Source: a virus
Virus record (IMG/VR): IMGVR_UViG_3300028392_000098
Location: 1 to 48,539 of that record
Strand: one strand, 5' to 3'
DNA: 48,539 bases
Under the pieces are notes generated by a model. That model did no database searches. It was not told where the DNA came from and saw nothing but the letters and a program-made list of their open reading frames with translations. Each line of letters opens with the position of its first letter. Within the stretch, counting starts at the first letter, position 1. The translations under genes and the position numbers were made by a program. This document shows, piece after piece, positions 7,134 through 48,539 of this stretch.

Positions 7134-10100
7134 GTGGCTGACAACCAATCCGTTCCCATGCCCCCACACATCAAAGCAGAGCTAGCAAGGCTACGTGCTC
7201 TTATGGTGCCTGATGCTGAAGCCTACCGCCGACGTGAGATCGGATCTAAGCGTATGGAGGAGGAGGCTAAGAAGATACAGCCTCTGCGCCCATTGAGTGC
7301 GGCAGATACTGGCGACCAGTATCCATTGGCGGCAGAGGGCGGATCGATCAGGCGCTTTGATGTAGGTGGCTCCAACAGCATCAGCTTGGATGACTTAAAT
7401 GAGGCGCTTAGAGATCGAGCACCTACTATTCCTGAGCAGTTCAACAGATACATAGCGCCGCATATCCAACGAGGCTTAGACGCCATGTTGCCGTTCCGCC
7501 AGTTGGCGCAGAAGACATTCGAGCGAAACGTGTACAACCCTTTGAATGAGTCTGTAATCAATAACATAAGCTCGGCGATTAAAACATCAGGTACAAATGC
7601 AAACGATGTCAACGATGCCAAAATTCACATAGCTAATGCGGCCAGAAAAGCGATTGGCATGGAGCCACGGCCTGTTGAGTTTGATGCGCAGAAAGCACTG
7701 GGCAATATTAACGAAGGTGAGTTTGACAGGCAGTACGTTGACATGGACAAACGCCACGCACAACGTCTTGAAGAGTTAAAGAAACTAATAGCACAGCGCA
7801 AAGCCAACGGCGGTCAAGTAGACATGGACAGGATGCGCCTTGAGCTGATGAACAGGAAGTCCAAAGGCGGTGTAGCTCACCTTGCTATCGGAGGCCAAGG
7901 CCCACGCAATTGGGTGAGCGGATCCGTTGAGCAAGTCTTGCATCCATTGAAGCAAAGAACAGCGGTGGGAAGCGACCCTGCTGAGACTTTGGCAGAGATG
8001 AACCAAAAGTGGACACCAGAAGCAATCGAGCAAGTAGCACAGACACAGCCCAATGTCCGCGAGATGATTCCTCGCCAAAAGACAGAGCTAGAGCACAAGG
8101 TTCACCTGAACAAATGGATTCAGAGCAACTTAGGCAACTACATCAAAAAGCAGATGGCCACACAAAACGATCCAATCCGCAACCTAGCGGAGCAAGGCAT
8201 CGTCCACATTCCTAGCGAACAAGTTGGAATAAACAGATACAAAGCTGGCGAACATCGGACTACTCATGGTGGTGAGAGCTTTGGCAAGTCAGAAGAGGCA
8301 AAGGCTTGGGAAGATGCCGCAGACGTAGCGATTACTCCTACATCGATAGAGAAGTTACACAAGCGATTCCAAGAACCTTGGATGGAGAAGGCTGACCCAA
8401 GCACTAAGTTGTTACATGCAAGCAGTAACATGCAAGCCAGTAGTTTGGGCTTTGATCACTTGGTGGATGTATTAAAAGAAGACTTAGCCAGTGGGCGTAT
8501 TCGTCCTGAGCAGTTGAATAAGGTCAGCATTGAGCAGGCTGTACGTCGTGCACATGAGTACGATCAAGAGAAGAAGAAGGCTATGGCTGAGACGGCTCTC
8601 AAGGCTACCGAAGGCATGGCAGTCCACAAAGAGTATCCAGAAGGTTACAAGTGGATTGAGTTGGCCAAGCCAAAGATTGATGTCAACAAACCATTGCCAG
8701 AAGGATTTAGATGGGTTGAGCCAAAAAGTGGTTATGAGCGCTTAGAAGGCCCAAGCATTCTTGATCCTCAAAGAACCCGTAGATACCTTGGTGAAACAAA
8801 AGAAGAAGCCCTCAAGGTGGCGCATGAAAAATCAACGATTGGTGCTGAAGATGAAAAAGCTCTTGAGGAAGCCCTCAAGTACGAAGGCAACACCATGGGT
8901 CATTGCGTTGGTGGATATTGCCCTGACGTGCTGGAAGGCCGTACACGCATCTTCAGCTTGCGTGATGCCAATAATGAACCACACGTAACGATTGAGGTTA
9001 GACCTAACCAAGCGCGAAGCAAGTACGAAACTGATTGGTTCACAAGTCAACCTGAAGAATTGCAAGATGCAATTACAAAGCAAGCGCTTGCTGAGCACGA
9101 GGCGACAAAACAAAAGCGTACCCCAGAAGAGGATAGATTTACTTGGGGGCAGGCACTAAGCAACGCCATCAAGTCCCATATGGGTGAGGTGCCACAACAG
9201 ATTGTTCAGATCAAAGGCAAGGGCAATAAGAAGCCCAAGAAGGATTACATTCCATTTGTTCAAGACTTTGTAAAGAGTGGTAATTGGTCTGACGTTGGTG
9301 ACATACATAACGCTGAATTGCACAAGTGGGGCAAAAGATATTTGAACAAAGAAGATATAGAAGCTTTAACACCTGAAGAAGAAAGCGCATTCGCTAGTAG
9401 GAATCTAAACAAAGCGAATGGCGGGATAATACGTAAAGCCGAAGGAGGCGCTGTGAACCCATTTGACTATGAGAACCCTGAGCATGTAAGTACAGTTGCT
9501 GGGCATGTATCCAAGCACAAAGACTTTAAAGATCTGCCTGAAGCCCATACACGCTTAGGCGAAGTGCTTTCCTCTGGTAGCTACAAGCACATGGAAGACC
9601 CACGCGTACAGATGGGGCTACGTAAGGCTGGCCACAACTCTTACTACACACAAGAGAAGACTGGCAAGAAGCTCAACAAGATGGTGATCAACAAAGCCGT
9701 CGGCGGTGCTGTGCCATCAATGAATCAAATGCGTGCAGAGCTAATAGGCAAGAAGCCTGTAAGCCTGTCTGACTTATCTACCATCGGTGCTAACGAAGCG
9801 CCTAGCATGAACGTCAAGGCTTATGTCCCACCATCTGGCGGTGAACTACCTGTAGGTGGTGTGAGCATGGGTGACCAGCCATTGCCTATCGGCGGCATTG
9901 ATATGAGCCAACAACAAGGCGGCCAACAGTTAATGCCTGCTGGCATGGCTCCACCACAAGGAGCGCCACAAGGCCAGCCCCCACAAGCTGGTGGTATGCC
10001 CTCCCCTTTGGGCGCAGGAGCACCATCTCCACAGCCACCAAGCAACATCTTGCAGATGACTAAGCAAGGGCAAGCATTGAACGCTATGAGCCCACCACAG

Positions 10101-11915
10101 GCGCCTCCACGCATGGCTGTGGGCGGATCTGTACCTGCACCATACAAGATTGGTGGAAGTGACAACATGGCTCCAGTAGACAATGGATGGAAGCCAGACA
10201 ACGGTGTTACTACATTTAATATCGATAACGTACAGCAAATTGCTAAGGGTGGTTCTATTGAGAAGATGAAGCAAGAGATGAAGTCCAAGGGCACGCCATG
10301 TATGACGCATGACCATGGATATGCTGATGGAGGGCGTGCAGGAAAAAAGTCTTCTAAGGAACCAAAGAGCACGGTTAAGGCGTACAAATTGTTCCGCGTA
10401 CACAAGAAGCATCCCGGCAAGTTGTTCCCTCTTTTTGTCAACGCCAACGATCCCGTAGAGATGAACAAATGGGTGGACGCTCAAGAGGGTGAGATGGCTG
10501 GTAGCAAGGTGAAGAGCAAGATTGGCCCGCTGGCGTATCGACCCGGTTGGCACGCTGGTGATCTACCCGTCGCTACCCACATCGGTGAGAAGTCTGACCC
10601 TGAACTAACAGCACCAGACGTCCGTCCCCACAACCACGTATGGGCTGAGGTCGAGATGCCTAACGATGTCGATTGGCAAACAGAAGCCAATGAGCGTGGC
10701 ATGAACCCCAAGGGCAAGCTGATCGCACGCGAAGCACACATCACTGACCAGATCCCCAAGGGCGGTCACTACAGATACAAGACCAATTCCAACATGACAG
10801 GCAACTGGCTGATTGGTGGAGCGATGAAGGTCAACCGTATATTGCATGACAAGGAAGTCAAAGCAATCAACAAGGCGGCAAAGGCAAAAGATCTGCCACG
10901 TATGCAGAAACAAAACTTGGCTGACTATGGATTTAAAGAAGGCGGATCGGCAAGCCCTACGCAGAAGAGCCCAGACAAGTTCAGACCTAAAGTCACAAAG
11001 GCATCGGAGGCGTTGGGTAAGCATGAGGGAAAGCATTTGAAGGTTACACAGTCTGATCGCACAAAGGTGGGTGGCGGGTTCCTCGGAGGCCCGGGGTTTT
11101 CTGGTCTGCAACACCTTTACCCTTCACACAAAGACGTCGCGTGGGGCGTGAACTCATCAGGCGCCGCCTCCAAGATCGCTAACGCCAATGCCGCTCACCC
11201 AGAGGGTGATGTGTTGTGGTCTACATTGCTCGGCGCTCCTAACCAACACACATCAAACCAAATGGTGTTTGATATGCTGATGAAGCAGTTCAAGAGTGGT
11301 ATTAAGTCTGGCAAGATGACGCCTGAATTGCGTGATCGCATCAATGCTCAATTGGCCATGGCGGCAGACAGCGAAGGCAAGCCAATCTTTTCTAACGCAG
11401 ACATTGCAAGCAAGAACTTCTTTAAAAACCTCAATACTTTCGATCAACGTCGCGTTATGGCTGACTTAATGGGCGGTAAAGCTGTGGGTGGTAAGAAGGG
11501 GCAAATCTTGAACTACGACAAGACAGTGGCCGACACAACAGAGCCTGAGTTGCTTGGTGCACCTACACACGCAATTGGCCCTCGCCTATTTCAGTTGAGT
11601 GGACAGCGTTCTGTACAACCAGATCTAAACCCAGCATTCCCTCACATGTTGCATGGAGAAGACTTAGGTCAGATGTTCCATCCAGTTCCACGTCAGATCA
11701 TGTTGCCTGAGTTTCATGGCAAGATCAAACAAGCAAAAGGACGTGATGTTGGCTTTATGGACTTAACACGCAATACACCGTCACAGCATTTGTCTGAAGA
11801 ATTTCTCACACACTTGCAAAGACATGGATATAAAAAAGGCGGCAAAGTGAACCTATCCACAAATATGGATACCATTAACTTAGAATTAAGCCGCAGAACA
11901 AAGAAAGCTAAATGA
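7134..11915 (+). CDS. Large polyvalent protein with PcfJ-like module (1593 aa)
   Basis: A modular giant between terL and portal. About residues 480-720 form a PcfJ-like module (MGHCVGGY at 588-595, then GRTRIFSLRD and HVTIEV). About 775-855 is a helical module starting NPFDYENPEHV. Residues 900-1000 are a Pro/Gly/Gln-rich linker. About 1080-1260 is a conserved-type module (YKLFRVHKKHPGK, AYRPGWHAGDLP, VWAEVEMPNDVDW, MTGNWLIGG). About 1280-1560 is another (GGGFLGGPGF, LLGAPNQHTSNQ). Modules are separated by more than a dozen xGGx motifs such as KAEGGAV, MAVGGSV and YKKGGKV. Such proteins are thought to be carried in virions and delivered to the host. Start GTG 7134 follows GAAGGA. Individual activities unknown. 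Confidence 0.85.
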   Translation: MADNQSVPMPPHIKAELARLRALMVPDAEAYRRREIGSKRMEEEAKKIQPLRPLSAADTGDQYPLAAEGGSIRRFDVGGSNSISLDDLNEALRDRAPTIPEQFNRYIAPHIQRGLDAMLPFRQLAQKTFERNVYNPLNESVINNISSAIKTSGTNANDVNDAKIHIANAARKAIGMEPRPVEFDAQKALGNINEGEFDRQYVDMDKRHAQRLEELKKLIAQRKANGGQVDMDRMRLELMNRKSKGGVAHLAIGGQGPRNWVSGSVEQVLHPLKQRTAVGSDPAETLAEMNQKWTPEAIEQVAQTQPNVREMIPRQKTELEHKVHLNKWIQSNLGNYIKKQMATQNDPIRNLAEQGIVHIPSEQVGINRYKAGEHRTTHGGESFGKSEEAKAWEDAADVAITPTSIEKLHKRFQEPWMEKADPSTKLLHASSNMQASSLGFDHLVDVLKEDLASGRIRPEQLNKVSIEQAVRRAHEYDQEKKKAMAETALKATEGMAVHKEYPEGYKWIELAKPKIDVNKPLPEGFRWVEPKSGYERLEGPSILDPQRTRRYLGETKEEALKVAHEKSTIGAEDEKALEEALKYEGNTMGHCVGGYCPDVLEGRTRIFSLRDANNEPHVTIEVRPNQARSKYETDWFTSQPEELQDAITKQALAEHEATKQKRTPEEDRFTWGQALSNAIKSHMGEVPQQIVQIKGKGNKKPKKDYIPFVQDFVKSGNWSDVGDIHNAELHKWGKRYLNKEDIEALTPEEESAFASRNLNKANGGIIRKAEGGAVNPFDYENPEHVSTVAGHVSKHKDFKDLPEAHTRLGEVLSSGSYKHMEDPRVQMGLRKAGHNSYYTQEKTGKKLNKMVINKAVGGAVPSMNQMRAELIGKKPVSLSDLSTIGANEAPSMNVKAYVPPSGGELPVGGVSMGDQPLPIGGIDMSQQQGGQQLMPAGMAPPQGAPQGQPPQAGGMPSPLGAGAPSPQPPSNILQMTKQGQALNAMSPPQAPPRMAVGGSVPAPYKIGGSDNMAPVDNGWKPDNGVTTFNIDNVQQIAKGGSIEKMKQEMKSKGTPCMTHDHGYADGGRAGKKSSKEPKSTVKAYKLFRVHKKHPGKLFPLFVNANDPVEMNKWVDAQEGEMAGSKVKSKIGPLAYRPGWHAGDLPVATHIGEKSDPELTAPDVRPHNHVWAEVEMPNDVDWQTEANERGMNPKGKLIAREAHITDQIPKGGHYRYKTNSNMTGNWLIGGAMKVNRILHDKEVKAINKAAKAKDLPRMQKQNLADYGFKEGGSASPTQKSPDKFRPKVTKASEALGKHEGKHLKVTQSDRTKVGGGFLGGPGFSGLQHLYPSHKDVAWGVNSSGAASKIANANAAHPEGDVLWSTLLGAPNQHTSNQMVFDMLMKQFKSGIKSGKMTPELRDRINAQLAMAADSEGKPIFSNADIASKNFFKNLNTFDQRRVMADLMGGKAVGGKKGQILNYDKTVADTTEPELLGAPTHAIGPRLFQLSGQRSVQPDLNPAFPHMLHGEDLGQMFHPVPRQIMLPEFHGKIKQAKGRDVGFMDLTRNTPSQHLSEEFLTHLQRHGYKKGGKVNLSTNMDTINLELSRRTKKAK

Positions 11916-17492: not shown

Positions 17493-18407
17493 ATGGCCGC
17501 ACCAATGCGCAGTACGGACTTTAGAAGTATTGTTGAACCTATCCTCAATGAATGCTTCGATGGAGTCTATGACCAACGTGCCGACGAGTGGAGCCGAGTG
17601 TTCCGCGAAGAAGACGGCATTCCACGTAATTACCACGAAGAGCCTGTCCTGTATGGATTCGGCGCCGCTCCACAATTGCCTGACGGTACTCCAGTTACCT
17701 ATCAGCAAGGTGGCGTACTCTTCTTGAAGCGCTATGTGTACAAAGTGTATGGCTTGGCCTTCGCTTTGACCAAAGTGCTTGTTGAAGACGGCGATCACAT
17801 CCGTATCGGTCAAGTTTATGCACGCCACTTGGCACAGTCTTTGGTGGAAACCAAAGAGTTGTTGTCAGCTAACGTGTTGAACACAGCCTTCAACTCCAGC
17901 TACCCCGGTGGCGACGGCGTTTCTTTGATCAACACTGCTCACCCAATCGTGAACGGTACGTTCAGCAACCAGTTGGCTACATCAGCTAACTTGTCGCAGA
18001 CATCATTGGAACAAATGTTGATCCAAATCCGCCAAGCTGTTGACAACAACGGTAAGAAGATTCGTTTGGTTCCACGTCAATTGATCGTGGCACCGGGCAA
18101 CATCTTCCAAGCCGAAGTGTTGTTGAAGTCTGTCCTCCGTACAGGCAACGCAAACAACGACATCAACCCCATCAAGGCAATTGGCTTGTTGGACGAGGGT
18201 GCCGCAGTTCTGTCACGTTTGACTTCATCTACCGCATGGTGGGTGCAGACCGACGCTCCAGAAGGCTTCAAGTTGTTGATGCGTCGTCGTCTTGAGAAGA
18301 CCATGGAAGGTGACTTTGAAACCGACTCCATGCGTTACAAGGCTACAGAGCGTTACGACGTAGGCTTTACAGATCCGCGTGCCGCTTACGGCACTGCTGG
18401 CGTCTAA
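17493..18407 (+). CDS. Major capsid protein (304 aa)
   Basis: Recognised from the pattern of HK97-fold, Mu gpT-related capsid proteins: N-terminal helix FRSIVEPILNECFDGVY, RNYHEEPVLYGFG, then LSANVLNTAFNSSYPGGDGVSLINTAHPIVNGTFSNQLAT and PRQLIVAPGNIFQAEVLLKSVLRT. Length 304 is typical. No N-terminal delta domain is evident, so assembly likely uses the separate scaffold upstream. AAGGAG at 17480-17485. It is closed by a strong terminator, consistent with a highly expressed gene. Confidence 0.88.
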   Translation: MAAPMRSTDFRSIVEPILNECFDGVYDQRADEWSRVFREEDGIPRNYHEEPVLYGFGAAPQLPDGTPVTYQQGGVLFLKRYVYKVYGLAFALTKVLVEDGDHIRIGQVYARHLAQSLVETKELLSANVLNTAFNSSYPGGDGVSLINTAHPIVNGTFSNQLATSANLSQTSLEQMLIQIRQAVDNNGKKIRLVPRQLIVAPGNIFQAEVLLKSVLRTGNANNDINPIKAIGLLDEGAAVLSRLTSSTAWWVQTDAPEGFKLLMRRRLEKTMEGDFETDSMRYKATERYDVGFTDPRAAYGTAGV

Positions 18408-18484: not shown

Positions 18485-19450
18485 ATGCCTCAATATTCTG
18501 ACGACCTATTTTTAGGTCCAGCCCAAACCTACATGGGTACGGGTCTGCGTCCTTACACCTCTACTTTTACTGGCTCGATTGCTACCACAACATTGACGGT
18601 AACCGCAATGCTGTCTGGCTCACCAATCGTGCTTGGTATGTACATCGACGGCACCAGCGTGACCGACGGTACTTACATCACTGCGTTTGTTACTGGTACT
18701 GGAGGTACGGGTACTTACACGGTTAACCAATCGGTGACCGCTTCTAGTACAACCATCTCTGCGCACACCAATACGACTCTTGATAATCCTTCTCCTATGG
18801 ACTTGGGTATTGGCCCTCTGGGTCGCATCTACGTTTGGGACGTCATTCCTCAAGCCGCCGTCACTAACAACATTGCCGCGTCGCAAACAACCACCACCGC
18901 TGGTCAGGCAGTCACTTTGACGGCTGGTACTTCGGTCAAGTCAGTTGTTCGCACTGACGGTACAACTGTTCTTCAGTTGGACTTGCCTCGCGCAATCAAA
19001 GTGAACTGCTCGACAACTGCTCGTGCTTTCACCGTCAGTGGTTACGACTACTACGGACAGGCAATGAGTGAAGTTATCACTGTGGTGACTGCCGCAACTG
19101 CTGTGACTGGTTTGAAGGCTTTCTACCAAATCAGTGGTGTGACTATTGCTGGCTCTGCAACTGCTGTTGTGGTTGGCACAAGCGACGTTCTGGGTCTTCC
19201 AGTTCGCGTGTTCAACGTGTCATACGTTGCTAGCGTCAAAAGCAACAACACATTAGCGCAAGACGCTGGTACGTTTGTCGCCGCAGACACTGCAACGGCA
19301 ACCACAGGTACTGGTGACGTTCGCGGTACATACGCCCCTGCCACTGCATCGAACGGTATCGTTCGTACAACAATGGGAATCTTGTTGCCTGCAATCGCTG
19401 TTGGGCCTAACGCTACTCGCGTTGGCGCTCTTGGCGTAACACAAGCCTAA
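18485..19450 (+). CDS. Virion structural protein with inserted beta module (321 aa)
   Basis: Frame residues [21 protein letters not shown] and, after an interruption, [22 protein letters not shown] read as one conserved-type structural domain. Between them, about residues 27-97, lies an [16 protein letters not shown] ... [22 protein letters not shown] module, a Gly/Thr-rich beta unit seen in many phage and bacterial surface proteins. The rest is beta-rich ([27 protein letters not shown]). AAGGAG at 18471-18476. A head or neck surface protein is likely. Confidence 0.75.
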
Positions 19451-19462
19451 AGGAGAGCAGTC

Positions 19463-20758
19463 ATGGGTCAATTCAAACCAATGGTCAAAATGATGACCAC
19501 AGAGCCTTCAGTAATCCTGAAGCTTAAAAAAGGCGGCAAAGTTGCTTCAAAGATGGACGGCGGTTACATGCCTATGCAATCTACTATGCCTGCTCAAGCA
19601 CCAGCAATGGCAAGTGCTCCTATGGGCATGGCTCCTAAAAAGCCTTCAATGATGGCTCGTCGTAAAGCGATGAACCCTATGATGATGGCCAAAAAAGGTG
19701 GCAAGGCTGACATGCATGAAGATGCCGCTCAAGATCGCGCAATGATCAAGAAGGCTATGGCTGGCAAGAAGTTCGCTTCTGGTGGCGCAATCGATAAAGA
19801 TGAAACCAAAACTACCATCAAAGGTAATGCTGGTAAGTTCGTTAATACCAAAGTTGTTGATGGTGACAAGACCGATAAGGCTTCTGGCACCAAAGGCATC
19901 AAGGAAAAGAACGCTGGTGGCTTCAAAAACGGTGGCACCATTGAAGGCAATGCAGGCAAGTTTTTGAACACCAAAGTGGTGGACGGCGACAAGGCTGACA
20001 AGGCTTCTGGTACTGGTGGCGTCAAGATGGGCAACGCTGGTGGCTACAAAAAAGGCGGCAACGTCAATTGGGAAAACCGTCCTGCTGACACAGCAAAAGC
20101 TGGTGTTACTAACGCAACCACTGGTGGCGTGAAGAACGGCAACGGCGGCGGCTACAAGAAGGGTGGTTCAACAAAAAAAGCCTACGCGACGGGGGGTACT
20201 GTTGATTCAGGCAAACCCGTCGCTATGCCACGCAAGCCTGTGTCACGTCCAGTGGCAAACAGCTTGCAGTCTGGCACCTTTGCTAAAGGTGGTGAGGTTA
20301 AAAAAAAAGAGGATAAACCCAATCTTCGATTGATTAAGACCCATACTGGCCCAAAAGGCCATGTAGCTAAAGTTTACAAAGACCGTGATTGGGAAGAGTA
20401 CAGAACCAAGTTCTACTCACCTGAAGGTAAGCATCTAAGCGAAGGTGATTCACACACCGACGACCTAGAAGATGCTCACATGACGGCCAAGCACGAAGTA
20501 AACAGAGGCTACGCCAAAGGTGGCAAGGCTAAGAAGTATGCTGAAGGTTCTTCCGTTACCCCCGCTGGTGATCCCAAAGTGGTTACAGACAAAGCAAGCC
20601 GTGAGCTTGAAGACGCGCTGAACCCTTTGAGCATGATCAAAGAAGGTTACGGAAAGATCAAAGACTACTTCACTAGCAAGCCAGCACCCGCAGGTAGCGT
20701 TACAAAAACTGAGAAATCAGTGACGGTGGCGCCCCGCAAACGCGGCGGAAGAGCATAA
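19463..20758 (+). CDS. Lys/Gly-rich repeat protein with GG motifs (431 aa)
   Basis: A basic, Met/Lys/Gly/Ala-rich, probably disordered protein. It contains KLKKGGKV near the N-terminus and then repeated YKKGG, FKNGG, FASGG, YATGG, FAKGG and YAKGG motifs. Residues 118-235 hold a tandem repeat: two 41-residue units (starting TIKGNAGKF and TIEGNAGKF) and a degenerate third. About residues 285-350 form a small folded domain (LRLIKTHTGPKGHVAKVYKDRDWEEYRTKFY). The motifs match those in the polyvalent protein at 7134. Possibly an internal, DNA-associated virion protein. AAGGAG at 19450-19455. Confidence 0.75.
   Translation: MGQFKPMVKMMTTEPSVILKLKKGGKVASKMDGGYMPMQSTMPAQAPAMASAPMGMAPKKPSMMARRKAMNPMMMAKKGGKADMHEDAAQDRAMIKKAMAGKKFASGGAIDKDETKTTIKGNAGKFVNTKVVDGDKTDKASGTKGIKEKNAGGFKNGGTIEGNAGKFLNTKVVDGDKADKASGTGGVKMGNAGGYKKGGNVNWENRPADTAKAGVTNATTGGVKNGNGGGYKKGGSTKKAYATGGTVDSGKPVAMPRKPVSRPVANSLQSGTFAKGGEVKKKEDKPNLRLIKTHTGPKGHVAKVYKDRDWEEYRTKFYSPEGKHLSEGDSHTDDLEDAHMTAKHEVNRGYAKGGKAKKYAEGSSVTPAGDPKVVTDKASRELEDALNPLSMIKEGYGKIKDYFTSKPAPAGSVTKTEKSVTVAPRKRGGRA
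19814..20167 (+). repeat. Tandem 123-bp coding repeat (2.9 copies)
   Basis: Unit 1 at 19814-19936 and unit 2 at 19937-20059 are each 41 codons. They share GNAGKF, NTKVVDGDK, DKASGT and NAGG in fixed order. Unit 3 (20060-20167) is degenerate but ends in the same GGYKKGG. The repeats keep frame inside the Lys/Gly-rich protein, and many differences are synonymous. Confidence 0.85.
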
Positions 20759-20765
20759 ACTGAGT

Positions 20766-20790
20766 GGGGGGCTACGTGCCCCCTACTTTT
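20766..20790 (+). terminator. Intrinsic terminator, second copy of terminator-leader unit
   Basis: GGGGGC (20767-20772), loop TACGT, GCCCCC (20778-20783), then TACTTTT. Eight bases beyond the upstream stop. The hairpin and following CTTTTAATTGGAG closely match the unit at 3655-3694, including placement just before a gene with no obvious promoter between. Confidence 0.72.
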
Positions 20791-20804
20791 AATTGGAGAT
20801 ATAT

Positions 20805-21224
20805 ATGGCTATAACAGCTACATCACAAACATTGTTTGATGGCGAAAGAATTGCCATCATGAAGTTTTACGCAACCATGAGCGCAACTGAAAATGAGTCT
20901 GCTGTTGTCAAGGTAAATCCTTCAACGTTGACTGCATCTGCCGCTGGCGGAGCTTGTGACGCCGTTACCATCTTAAAAGTGACGGCGTTGACTCATGGAC
21001 TTGAAGTTCAAATGAATTGGGTAGCTACGGCTCCCGTTGTAATTGAAACTATCCCGCAAAACAATGCGTATACGCAAGACTATTCCAAAATTGGCGGTTT
21101 AAACAATAATTCTGGCGCTGGAAAAACGGGTTCAATTTCGTTTACTACGCTTGATGGATCTGCTGGTGATTCGTATACCGTAGTTTTAGAAATGCAAAAG
21201 CATTACGTCAATCCATACGCTTAA
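20805..21224 (+). CDS. Beta-rich virion protein candidate (139 aa)
   Basis: A 139-residue protein of alternating beta strands (ERIAIMKFYATMSATENESAVVKVNPSTL, VTILKVTALTHGLEVQMNWVATAPVVIETIP, AGDSYTVVLEMQKHY). The final pattern, a strand ending YTVVLEMQKHY, is frequent in small phage virion proteins of unknown name. ATG 20805 behind GGAG (20795-20798) is preferred over TTG 20793. Likely a head or neck component by position. Confidence 0.7.
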   Translation: MAITATSQTLFDGERIAIMKFYATMSATENESAVVKVNPSTLTASAAGGACDAVTILKVTALTHGLEVQMNWVATAPVVIETIPQNNAYTQDYSKIGGLNNNSGAGKTGSISFTTLDGSAGDSYTVVLEMQKHYVNPYA

Positions 21225-21232
21225 GGATAATC

Positions 21233-21697
21233 ATGCCATTGATCAAATCAAAATCTGACAAAGCTTTTAAGTCCAACATCAAGGCAGAAATGGCCGCAGG
21301 CAAGCCCCAAAAGCAAGCCGTGGCGATCGCTTACAGCACCAAGCGTGCGGCCAAGAAAGCTGTTGGTGGTCGTGCTTCTGTCAATCCAATGGACTATGAC
21401 AGCGATGAGGACTATTACAACTCGCTTAAAGCAAAAGGTATAAAAGCCCCTCGCCCATACACTCAAGCGGATCGTGAGGCGATACGTACTGGCTCTATGT
21501 ATAAAGCCAAACAAGAAAAAGAAAAGGCTGACAACGCGGCTTTTTACGCTAAAAATGCTCAGAAGAATGCTGAGTATGACAAGCGTATTCTTGCGCAAGT
21601 AAATGAGCGCCGTAAAGCTTCTGGTGATACACCACTGGATAAGCTTCCAAATAGAAAGTCTGGCGGCAATGTCAAGAAAACTAACTCTTGTTGGTAA
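21233..21697 (+). CDS. Basic GG-motif protein with DUF6496-like N-terminus (154 aa)
   Basis: The first 43 residues (MPLIKSKSDKAFKSNIKAEM, GKPQKQAVAIAYSTKR) match the phage family I know as DUF6496. Then come AVGGRASVNPMDYDSDEDYY, resembling the GGAVNPFDYENPEH segment of the polyvalent protein, a charged helical region, and the tail KSGGNVKKTNSCW. The next two genes end in NSGW and CSGW. Probably a minor virion protein; activity unknown. Start ATG 21233, with AAGGA at 21224-21228. Confidence 0.75.
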   Translation: MPLIKSKSDKAFKSNIKAEMAAGKPQKQAVAIAYSTKRAAKKAVGGRASVNPMDYDSDEDYYNSLKAKGIKAPRPYTQADREAIRTGSMYKAKQEKEKADNAAFYAKNAQKNAEYDKRILAQVNERRKASGDTPLDKLPNRKSGGNVKKTNSCW

Positions 21698-21706
21698 GGA
21701 AATATC

Positions 21707-22081
21707 ATGGCAACAATTGCATCATTGGCAGGTTTAATGGGTGGCTCGGACGCTGGCGCTATGACTCCTGCCGCTCCTCAATCAATTGATTCAGGCACTG
21801 GTAGCGGAGGCGGAATAGGTCTTGGTGGTACTGGTGCTGGTGGTTCTGCGCAAGATGGCCTTGGCCAAGTTAACAGTGGAGCTTCCACGATTGCTAGTGC
21901 TATCGGCCAAGCTCAAAACGCATTAGGTAGTGGAGGTGGTGGATCAATGGCCATTGAAGGCAACAAAGCTTTTAAAAAAGGTGGTTCTGTAAAAAAGAAT
22001 TACACCAATGGCGGAAAAATCAATCTTGATGCCTGCGGTGTCTCGACATCGTCAAAAGGCAAAAAGAACTCTGGTTGGTAA
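21707..22081 (+). CDS. Gly/Ser/Ala-rich GG-motif protein with NSGW tail (124 aa)
   Basis: Residues 1-85 are low-complexity Gly/Ser/Ala (SLAGLMGGSDAGAM, GSGGGIGLGGTGAGG). Then FKKGGSVKKNYTNGGKINLDACGVSTSS and the C-terminal KGKKNSGW. Its KKGG motif matches the last residues of the polyvalent protein (YKKGGKVNL). No enzymatic motif. AAGGAA at 21697-21702. Likely a structural or injected minor protein of the same family-like cluster as its neighbours. Confidence 0.72.
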   Translation: MATIASLAGLMGGSDAGAMTPAAPQSIDSGTGSGGGIGLGGTGAGGSAQDGLGQVNSGASTIASAIGQAQNALGSGGGGSMAIEGNKAFKKGGSVKKNYTNGGKINLDACGVSTSSKGKKNSGW

Positions 22082-22084
22082 ACC

Positions 22085-22480
22085 ATGGCTAAACAAGGAC
22101 TATATGCAAACATTCATGCAAAACAGCAAAGAATTGCTGAAGGCTCTGGCGAAAAAATGCGCAGAGTTGGTAGCAAAGGCGCGCCTAGTGCTGATGCCTT
22201 CAAAGAGTCAGCAAAAACCGCCAAAATGAAAGATGGCGGTGTAAGCCTAGCTGTTGGTCGTGGTGAAAAACTATCGACAAAACAAGGCGCAGGGCTTACA
22301 AAAAAAGGTAGAGAAAAGTACAATCGAGAAACAGGTTCAAACCTCAAAGCACCACAGCCTCAAGGCGGCGCACGCAAGGATTCCTTTTGTGCACGTATGA
22401 GCGGTGTTGTGGAGCACGCTAAGGGCGATGCACCAAGGGCAAAAGCCTCTTTGAAGCGATGGAATTGCTCTGGTTGGTAA
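22085..22480 (+). CDS. DUF6321-like basic protein with CSGW tail (131 aa)
   Basis: Begins MAKQGLYANIHAKQQRIAEGSGEKMRRVG. Later comes KDGGVSLAVGRGEKLSTKQGAGLTKKGREKYNRETG. The C-terminal 45 residues (RKDSFCARMSGVVEHAKGDAPRAKASLKRWNC) are the cysteine-containing pattern I associate with DUF6321 in cyanophage and pelagic phage genomes. The very end is WNCSGW. Highly basic, so DNA contact is plausible. It starts four bases after the previous stop, so the three W-tailed genes are co-translated. Confidence 0.75.
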   Translation: MAKQGLYANIHAKQQRIAEGSGEKMRRVGSKGAPSADAFKESAKTAKMKDGGVSLAVGRGEKLSTKQGAGLTKKGREKYNRETGSNLKAPQPQGGARKDSFCARMSGVVEHAKGDAPRAKASLKRWNCSGW

Positions 22481-47913: not shown

Positions 47914-48539
47914 CTAGAAGGGAATATCGCCGTCGTCTTCGTCAAAGCTTGTGGCAGGCGCCTTAGCTATGTCGTCTACAGTCTTTGTTTTCTTACCCAG
48001 CTTCTCCCACTCAGGCGAAGACTGGATCTTCTTCTTGAGGTTGTCGCTGAACGTCTCAAACATTGCCATGTCTGGATCAGTTAAGTTAAACAGTTCGTTC
48101 TTGTTGACCGCTTCAGGCAAACCGCCTTTCTTGATCATCGATGGAACTGGGGTTACGCCAGAGACGTTGACATACATCTTGCCGTCTTGGCCTGCGCGCT
48201 CGATGACGTTCAGCATGCACCAAGCATTCAGTACAGTCTTTAAGTCAAAGCGACGCATCTCTTCCTGTGTGAAAGGCTTACCGCGCCACGATTGCAAGTC
48301 ACCACGCAGGGTAGCCTTCTCAGACCACGACAGCGTGTAGTTCTTGAATATGGCGAATGGGCGACCATCACGCATTTTGAGGGGGGTTCCATCATCATTG
48401 GTGCCGTGGATCTCCCAGCCCAACATGATCTTGTGGAGGTACTTGATTTGACCCATGTACTCCGATTTTTGCGTACCCAAATCAATGATTCGGTAGCAAC
48501 GTGCTAAATGCATCCCTGACGGGGTAGCTTCAAAATTAC
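47914..48539 (-). CDS. SSB-like replication protein, 5' truncated by window edge
   Basis: The frame is open to the right edge. An internal ATG at 48513 exists, but the residues before it (NFEATPSG) already fit the family, so the true start lies outside. Family pattern: HLARCYRIIDLGTQKSEYMGQ, KIMLGWEIHG, GRPFAIFKNYTLSWSEKATLRGDLQSWRGKPFTQEE, LNAWCMLNVIE, KMYVNVSGVTPVP. This is a common phage protein next to recombination genes. The C-terminus FDEDDGDIPF mirrors the acidic tip of bacterial SSB (DDDIPF), which recruits host replication and repair proteins. Functional SSB is inferred. Confidence 0.8.
   Translation of the reverse strand, partial: NFEATPSGMHLARCYRIIDLGTQKSEYMGQIKYLHKIMLGWEIHGTNDDGTPLKMRDGRPFAIFKNYTLSWSEKATLRGDLQSWRGKPFTQEEMRRFDLKTVLNAWCMLNVIERAGQDGKMYVNVSGVTPVPSMIKKGGLPEAVNKNELFNLTDPDMAMFETFSDNLKKKIQSSPEWEKLGKKTKTVDDIAKAPATSFDEDDGDIPF

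Follow-up and report, generated by a model that had tools for sequence, protein, structure and literature searches.

The question raised by this locus is why three consecutive genes in the head region of a phage genome, whose products have different bodies, should all end in a short tail with a terminal tryptophan. The window is the whole stretch of DNA that was analyzed, 48,539 bases long and recorded in IMG/VR as a virus. The region around the three genes encodes, in this order, the terminase large subunit, a protein of 1593 residues with a PcfJ-like domain, the portal, a GroES-like protein, three further small proteins, the major capsid protein, the product of the gene at 18485-19450, P1, P2, P3, P4, P5, and the adaptor. 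The relevant features are as follows:

7134-11915, plus strand, protein of 1593 residues with a PcfJ-like domain (PF14284, E = 8e-8), between terminase and portal, without terminal tag
17493-18407, plus strand, major capsid protein (PF25209 and PF10124), left border of the cassette
18485-19450, gene between the capsid gene and P1
19463-20758, plus strand, P1, KGG-repeat protein of 431 residues that ends in RGGRA in the window
20805-21224, plus strand, P2, 139 residues, not KGG-rich, without tag, ending in NPYA
21233-21697, plus strand, P3, 154 residues, with a phrog_2423 module (residues 1-46), a basic linker, and the type-i tail KSGGNVKKTNSCW
21683-21694, plus strand, NSCW codons at the end of P3, read from the sequence and followed by TAA
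21707-22081, plus strand, P4, 124 residues, with a Gly/Ser-rich body and a type-ii tail, ending in SSKGKKNSGW
22010-22078, plus strand, type-ii tail GGKINLDACGVSTSSKGKKNSGW of P4, defined by alignment and body clusters and present on many unrelated bodies
22085-22480, plus strand, P5, 131 residues, with a phrog_16028 module (residues 1-49) and DUF6321 (residues 69-126), ending in LKRWNCSGW
22466-22477, plus strand, CSGW codons at the end of P5, read from the sequence and followed by TAA
22490-23563, plus strand, SU10-adaptor-like adaptor protein (PF24175, E = 9e-4, below the curated cut-off), right border of the cassette

The endings NSCW, NSGW, and CSGW of P3, P4, and P5, each directly in front of TAA, are present as stated in a preliminary description of this DNA, and the ending CTCTGGTTGGTAA is indeed exactly common to P4 and P5. 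No other gene of the window has a terminal W in our gene call. The same description had listed the genes starting at 19463, 21233, 21707, and 22085 as consecutive, which is correct for the last three but not for the first, because the untagged, non-KGG P2 lies between P1 and P3. With respect to the bodies, the assignment of P5 as DUF6321-like was right (PF19846, 58.6 bits at a curated cut-off of 28.5, E = 1e-15), and its N-terminal module is phrog_16028 (E = 2.2e-24); the predicted structure of P5 was of low confidence (mean pLDDT 65) and gave no fold match. The body of P4 is Gly/Ser-rich, as described, and had no Pfam or PHROG match in profile searches. A DUF6496-like body had also been suggested, but neither P1 nor P3 matched DUF6496 in Pfam at E-values up to 1; the N-terminus of P3 is phrog_2423 (E = 2.5e-16 with a profile of 52 positions). 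Full-length duplication of P3, P4, and P5 was rejected, as BLASTP among the three proteins gave nothing significant, the best match between P3 and P4 being KSGGNVKK to KKGGSVKK.

To place these endings in a broader context, genes were called in 238 loci with a simple custom codon-model caller, and the genes of the slot, defined as those between the capsid or structural gene and the adaptor, were taken from 162 loci. The 283 unique module or KGG proteins of the slot had W as their last residue in 161 cases, C in 80, Y in 7, and F in 4. Terminal W or C was thus found in 241 of these 283 proteins, compared to 7 of 1043 other unique proteins, where W occurred six times (0.6%) and C once (0.1%), and four of the six W endings were tag-like on inspection. 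The Fisher test for terminal W gives p = 2.5e-119, a value that is overstated because of the relatedness of the sequences and because these same proteins were the queries by which the loci were retrieved. A better measure is the number of body families; when the last 12 residues were removed before clustering, at least 12 unrelated bodies that end in W resulted, and family scans of ten W-ended bodies found nothing above the curated cut-off. A blind scan of all viral contigs with the back-translated pattern GGK[VIM]K-x-CW-stop matched seven contigs, all seven in the slot and in this clade, and one of them was new to the set; by our own rough estimate, less than one chance match is expected for such a tail of eight residues plus stop.

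Within the slot, W was the terminal residue in 26 of 26 P3 homologues and in 115 of 124 DUF6321 proteins, and the 15 P4 homologues ended in W (13) or F (2). The P1 homologues had a terminal C in 76 of 100 cases (RGGRAC, RGGSVKC); the end rule of P1 may be related to that of the other proteins or distinct from it. Other P1 homologues end in CNY, CNW, or GGSW, and one further copy (locus L001) ends in RGGRA like that of the window. The last residue of P2 homologues varies (A, S, G, and others). In one locus (L212:2732-4040), a tagged DUF6321 gene has as neighbors three unrelated genes in a row that carry type-ii tails, which makes four tagged genes in this locus, a number also counted in L228 and L238.

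Two tail types can be distinguished. Type i consists of [KT]GG[KS][VAM], up to a few residues, and [KN]SCW (in short form GG[KS][VAM]..SCW), and type ii, which by alignment is found in P4 and most singleton bodies, reads GGK[IV][NS]L..C.VST..K....[GNCS]W. DUF6321 proteins of this clade end in RW.C[PS][GN]W, in contrast to those of other phages, which reach no more than one or two residues past RW.C. W dominates at the last position and is replaced by F or Y in a minority of cases; the penultimate residue is mostly C, N, or S, and Ser and Lys precede it. The tripeptide PGW is written in 13 codon spellings, and all three stop codons occur after W. As codons and stops vary, the constraint acts on the protein, and a DNA-level or tandem-stop origin of the tails was rejected on the same grounds. 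Gene conversion within genomes was likewise rejected, as there was no excess identity (p = 0.18): the DNA similarity of tails is no higher within one genome than between different genomes.

The best evidence for a protein-level tag comes from split and fused genes, which can be regarded as a natural experiment. Four modules, namely A (MPSKSPAQ-type), B (phrog_2423), C (phrog_16028), and D (DUF6321), occur either fused or separate. In 66 fused C-D proteins, no W was found at the junction (0/66), and the GG after ..AKTAK was retained. In split versions, the GG..CW end was present in 14 of the 20 unique upstream halves and absent from the others, which end in AKVK, AKSK, GYRD, and, in one case, KYRF. 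The split arrangement of locus L179 is illustrative, with an upstream gene that runs on to ..AKMKDGGKMSKSCW-stop and a downstream gene that begins with MAKNPSLA... Where DUF6321 is extended past RW.C, an aromatic residue is back at the new terminus (IKGW, TPMW, VKNY). It is the terminal position that is kept, not the local sequence. The end rule is not uniform, as most P1 proteins have a terminal C and that of the window a terminal A. Some split halves are untagged.

Taken together, the gene comparisons show a tail that does not depend on the body, is constrained at the protein level, and has its fixed place at the very C-terminus, and we regard it as almost certain that this tail is a selected tag of some kind. 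The idea that it is a tag rather than a trace of paralogy is strongly supported by the unrelated bodies, the same tails on at least 12 body families, the variable codons, and the split and fused genes, in which the tag is confined to the final C-terminus. The collected homologues had been expected to decide whether the terminal W is independent of the body, which is what they indicate; neither random loss of the W motif among homologues nor recent full-length duplicates were seen.

MW202545, a circular genome from Manatee Spring that is complete, encodes a capsid protein with 96% identity to that of the window; its P1 ends in RGGPAKC and its P3 in KGGKVNW. The capsid protein of the window is 77% identical to the capsid proteins of the Caulobacter phages RW, GB2A, RLK, and KcrB, and about 40% identical to those of Pelagibacter, Roseobacter, Planktothrix, and DSL-LC04 phages. 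Some phages with related capsids have no tag. The cassette is accessory, as it is altogether absent from Caulobacter phage RW. Among genome contigs, the closest relatives of P5 are found on Betaproteobacteria and Burkholderiales MAG contigs, which suggests this group as hosts. The partner search compared tagged with untagged genomes. The product of 18485-19450, encoded by an upstream gene special to tagged phages, was rejected as an obvious receptor, as it is replaced in some tagged loci.

That the tag serves as a virion packaging, docking, or processing signal, as the preliminary description had proposed, is plausible on the basis of gene position, variable bodies, and precedent. The slot position between capsid and adaptor genes is, by itself, no proof of a virion location. 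Our tentative proposal, which may well apply, is that the tail is a docking peptide that packages accessory proteins into the head. P3, P4, and P5 belong to a cassette of accessory proteins in which the bodies are freely exchanged and the short C-terminal tail is retained. The terminal aromatic residue, its free carboxylate, and the preceding basic residues would fit into a pocket on a conserved morphogenesis protein, the putative receptor being capsid, portal, or scaffold. Docking would pull the tailed protein into the procapsid, with the head as presumed destination, and the packaged protein would probably be ejected into the host together with the DNA. A receptor that stays the same while its clients change would agree with the capsid protein, which is conserved across the tagged loci (median 93% identity), and with the exchange of bodies. 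Weak contacts could be added by the KGG motifs repeated inside P1, which are similar to those of the 1593-residue protein. More doubtful is the broader claim that a variable cassette of proteins delivered by these phages is loaded in general by means of the Trp-ended peptide, such that any protein with the tail would become virion cargo.

Other explanations have to be weighed against packaging. Being basic and Gly-rich and ending in an aromatic residue, the tails could bind DNA directly by Trp stacking and Lys contacts, and the proteins would then be DNA condensers or DNA-protecting factors and not clients of a protein receptor. The net charges of P3 (+17), P4 (+4), P5 (+17), and P1 (+38) and the Lys-rich positions ahead of the terminal residue are in line with this; however, nucleic-acid binding accounts neither for W as the very last residue nor for the single end tag on fused proteins, and P4 is only weakly basic; we consider this explanation unlikely. 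Short C-terminal peptides with a preference for the end residue are commonly recognized in cellular proteolysis and sorting, and the tail could be read in the infected cell, and not in the particle, by a host or phage protease, a chaperone, or another partner that determines stability or localization. Such cellular precedent and the position at the exact C-terminus would agree with a tag of this kind, but it is confined to head-region genes of one phage clade, other proteins of the same phages are untagged, and no partner was found, which renders this explanation unlikely.

The terminal W of P5 could also be an inherited old domain end (W.C..W), in which case only the P3- and P4-type tails would be tags, or the likeness would be coincidence. 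Roseobacter phage CRP-901 and many marine contigs encode the end RARH..KARYWSC[KR][AM]W, which resembles RKDSFCARM..KRWNC[PS]GW, and the terminal W of P5 may therefore be partly inherited. As a full explanation, inheritance is quite unlikely, since DUF6321 proteins elsewhere stop at RW.C or one residue later, the aromatic residue returns at the new end where the domain is extended in this clade, and the tails of P3 and P4 are independent of DUF6321. Finally, the tails could have no function, having spread by gene-end recombination or by loss of a first stop (TGA to TGG, TGC, or TGT) and being kept by descent. Each of these three codons is one base from TGA, and the type-ii tails are clearly related to one another, but codons and stops vary, there is no gene-conversion signal, Y and F replace W, the tails are conserved across divergent bodies, and tags appear precisely at split sites; we therefore consider a lack of function very improbable.

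If packaging via the tail were confirmed, a sequence rule would be available for spotting accessory, perhaps injected, and perhaps anti-defense proteins in a widely sampled, mostly uncultured group of freshwater phages, in which the bodies match almost nothing known, and the short portable tag might be used to load proteins into phage heads. The receptor question is open to testing, as the capsid protein is highly conserved and has cultured relatives. Two further observations concern other proteins of this phage. The adaptor, whose homologues carry the annotation tail adaptor, has an internal weak match to an F5/8 type C domain (E = 2e-4), possibly a lectin-like insertion in the head-tail connector. 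The product of 47914-48456 on the minus strand ends in DDGDIPF, as is usual for the C-terminal tip of single-stranded DNA-binding proteins of bacteria; this is a terminal-aromatic docking motif of another kind.

In comparison to known systems, the DUF6321 (PF19846) proteins of cyanophages and pelagiphages share with P5 the domain and the invariant SFCAR and W.C, but outside the clade they have no PGW or SGW. The protein of S-SM1 (T4-GC 119) is called hypothetical in its record, and the S-P4 and RB11-B records call theirs structural with no evidence visible for the label; in the first 150 kb of the 175 kb of cyanophage S-CREM2, no protein matched the DUF6321 pattern. In Synechococcus phage syn9, DUF6321 is the C-terminal part of gp114 (L255:4867-6198), a basic protein of 443 residues with several Cys-containing motifs, and the gene adjoins terminase and neck genes. 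A widespread marine phage family of about 85 residues ends in YWSC[KR][AM]W (for example YWSCKAW) and is represented by L244:7660-7917 of CRP-901 and by L289-L368. No curated name was found for it, and one record says HVA1 family; by its sequence, it is possibly a distant DUF6321 relative with its own terminal W. These small basic proteins resemble the cassette tails in the terminal W and the Cys three residues before it, but they are a single family, and other KGG proteins in those loci do not follow a terminal-W rule.

According to a prediction in PMC5512222, phages package their polyvalent proteins and inject them. The cassette proteins differ from them in being small, tagged, and without a recognized enzymatic domain. 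The 1593-residue protein resembles a polyvalent protein and may be one; it has the PcfJ-like domain and, by motif count, many GG-centered linkers similar to those of P1, and it has no tag. Its domain assignments are one PcfJ match and phrog_30118 (function unknown).

Targeting peptides of family 1 encapsulins are short, located at the C-terminus of the cargo, and bound by an HK97-lineage shell (PMC10960027). The cassette tails are likewise C-terminal peptides conserved on unrelated proteins, but the encapsulin peptides have another sequence, function in cellular compartments, and have demonstrated binding, whereas binding of the phage tails is proposed. In T4, a capsid targeting sequence on internal proteins, and in phage P1, the DarB signal, both N-terminal, direct foreign proteins into heads, and the T4 sequence is removed by the prohead protease (PMC3012670, PMC9024508). 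Like the cassette tail, which is found on at least 12 body clusters, these signals are short constant peptides on diverse accessory proteins with variable bodies. They differ in being N-terminal and demonstrated in heads, whereas the shared element described here is C-terminal and, unlike the T4 signal, has no known protease. If the tail acted as a general loading signal, which we put forward with reserve, it might represent the C-terminal equivalent of the system by which T4 packages its internal proteins.
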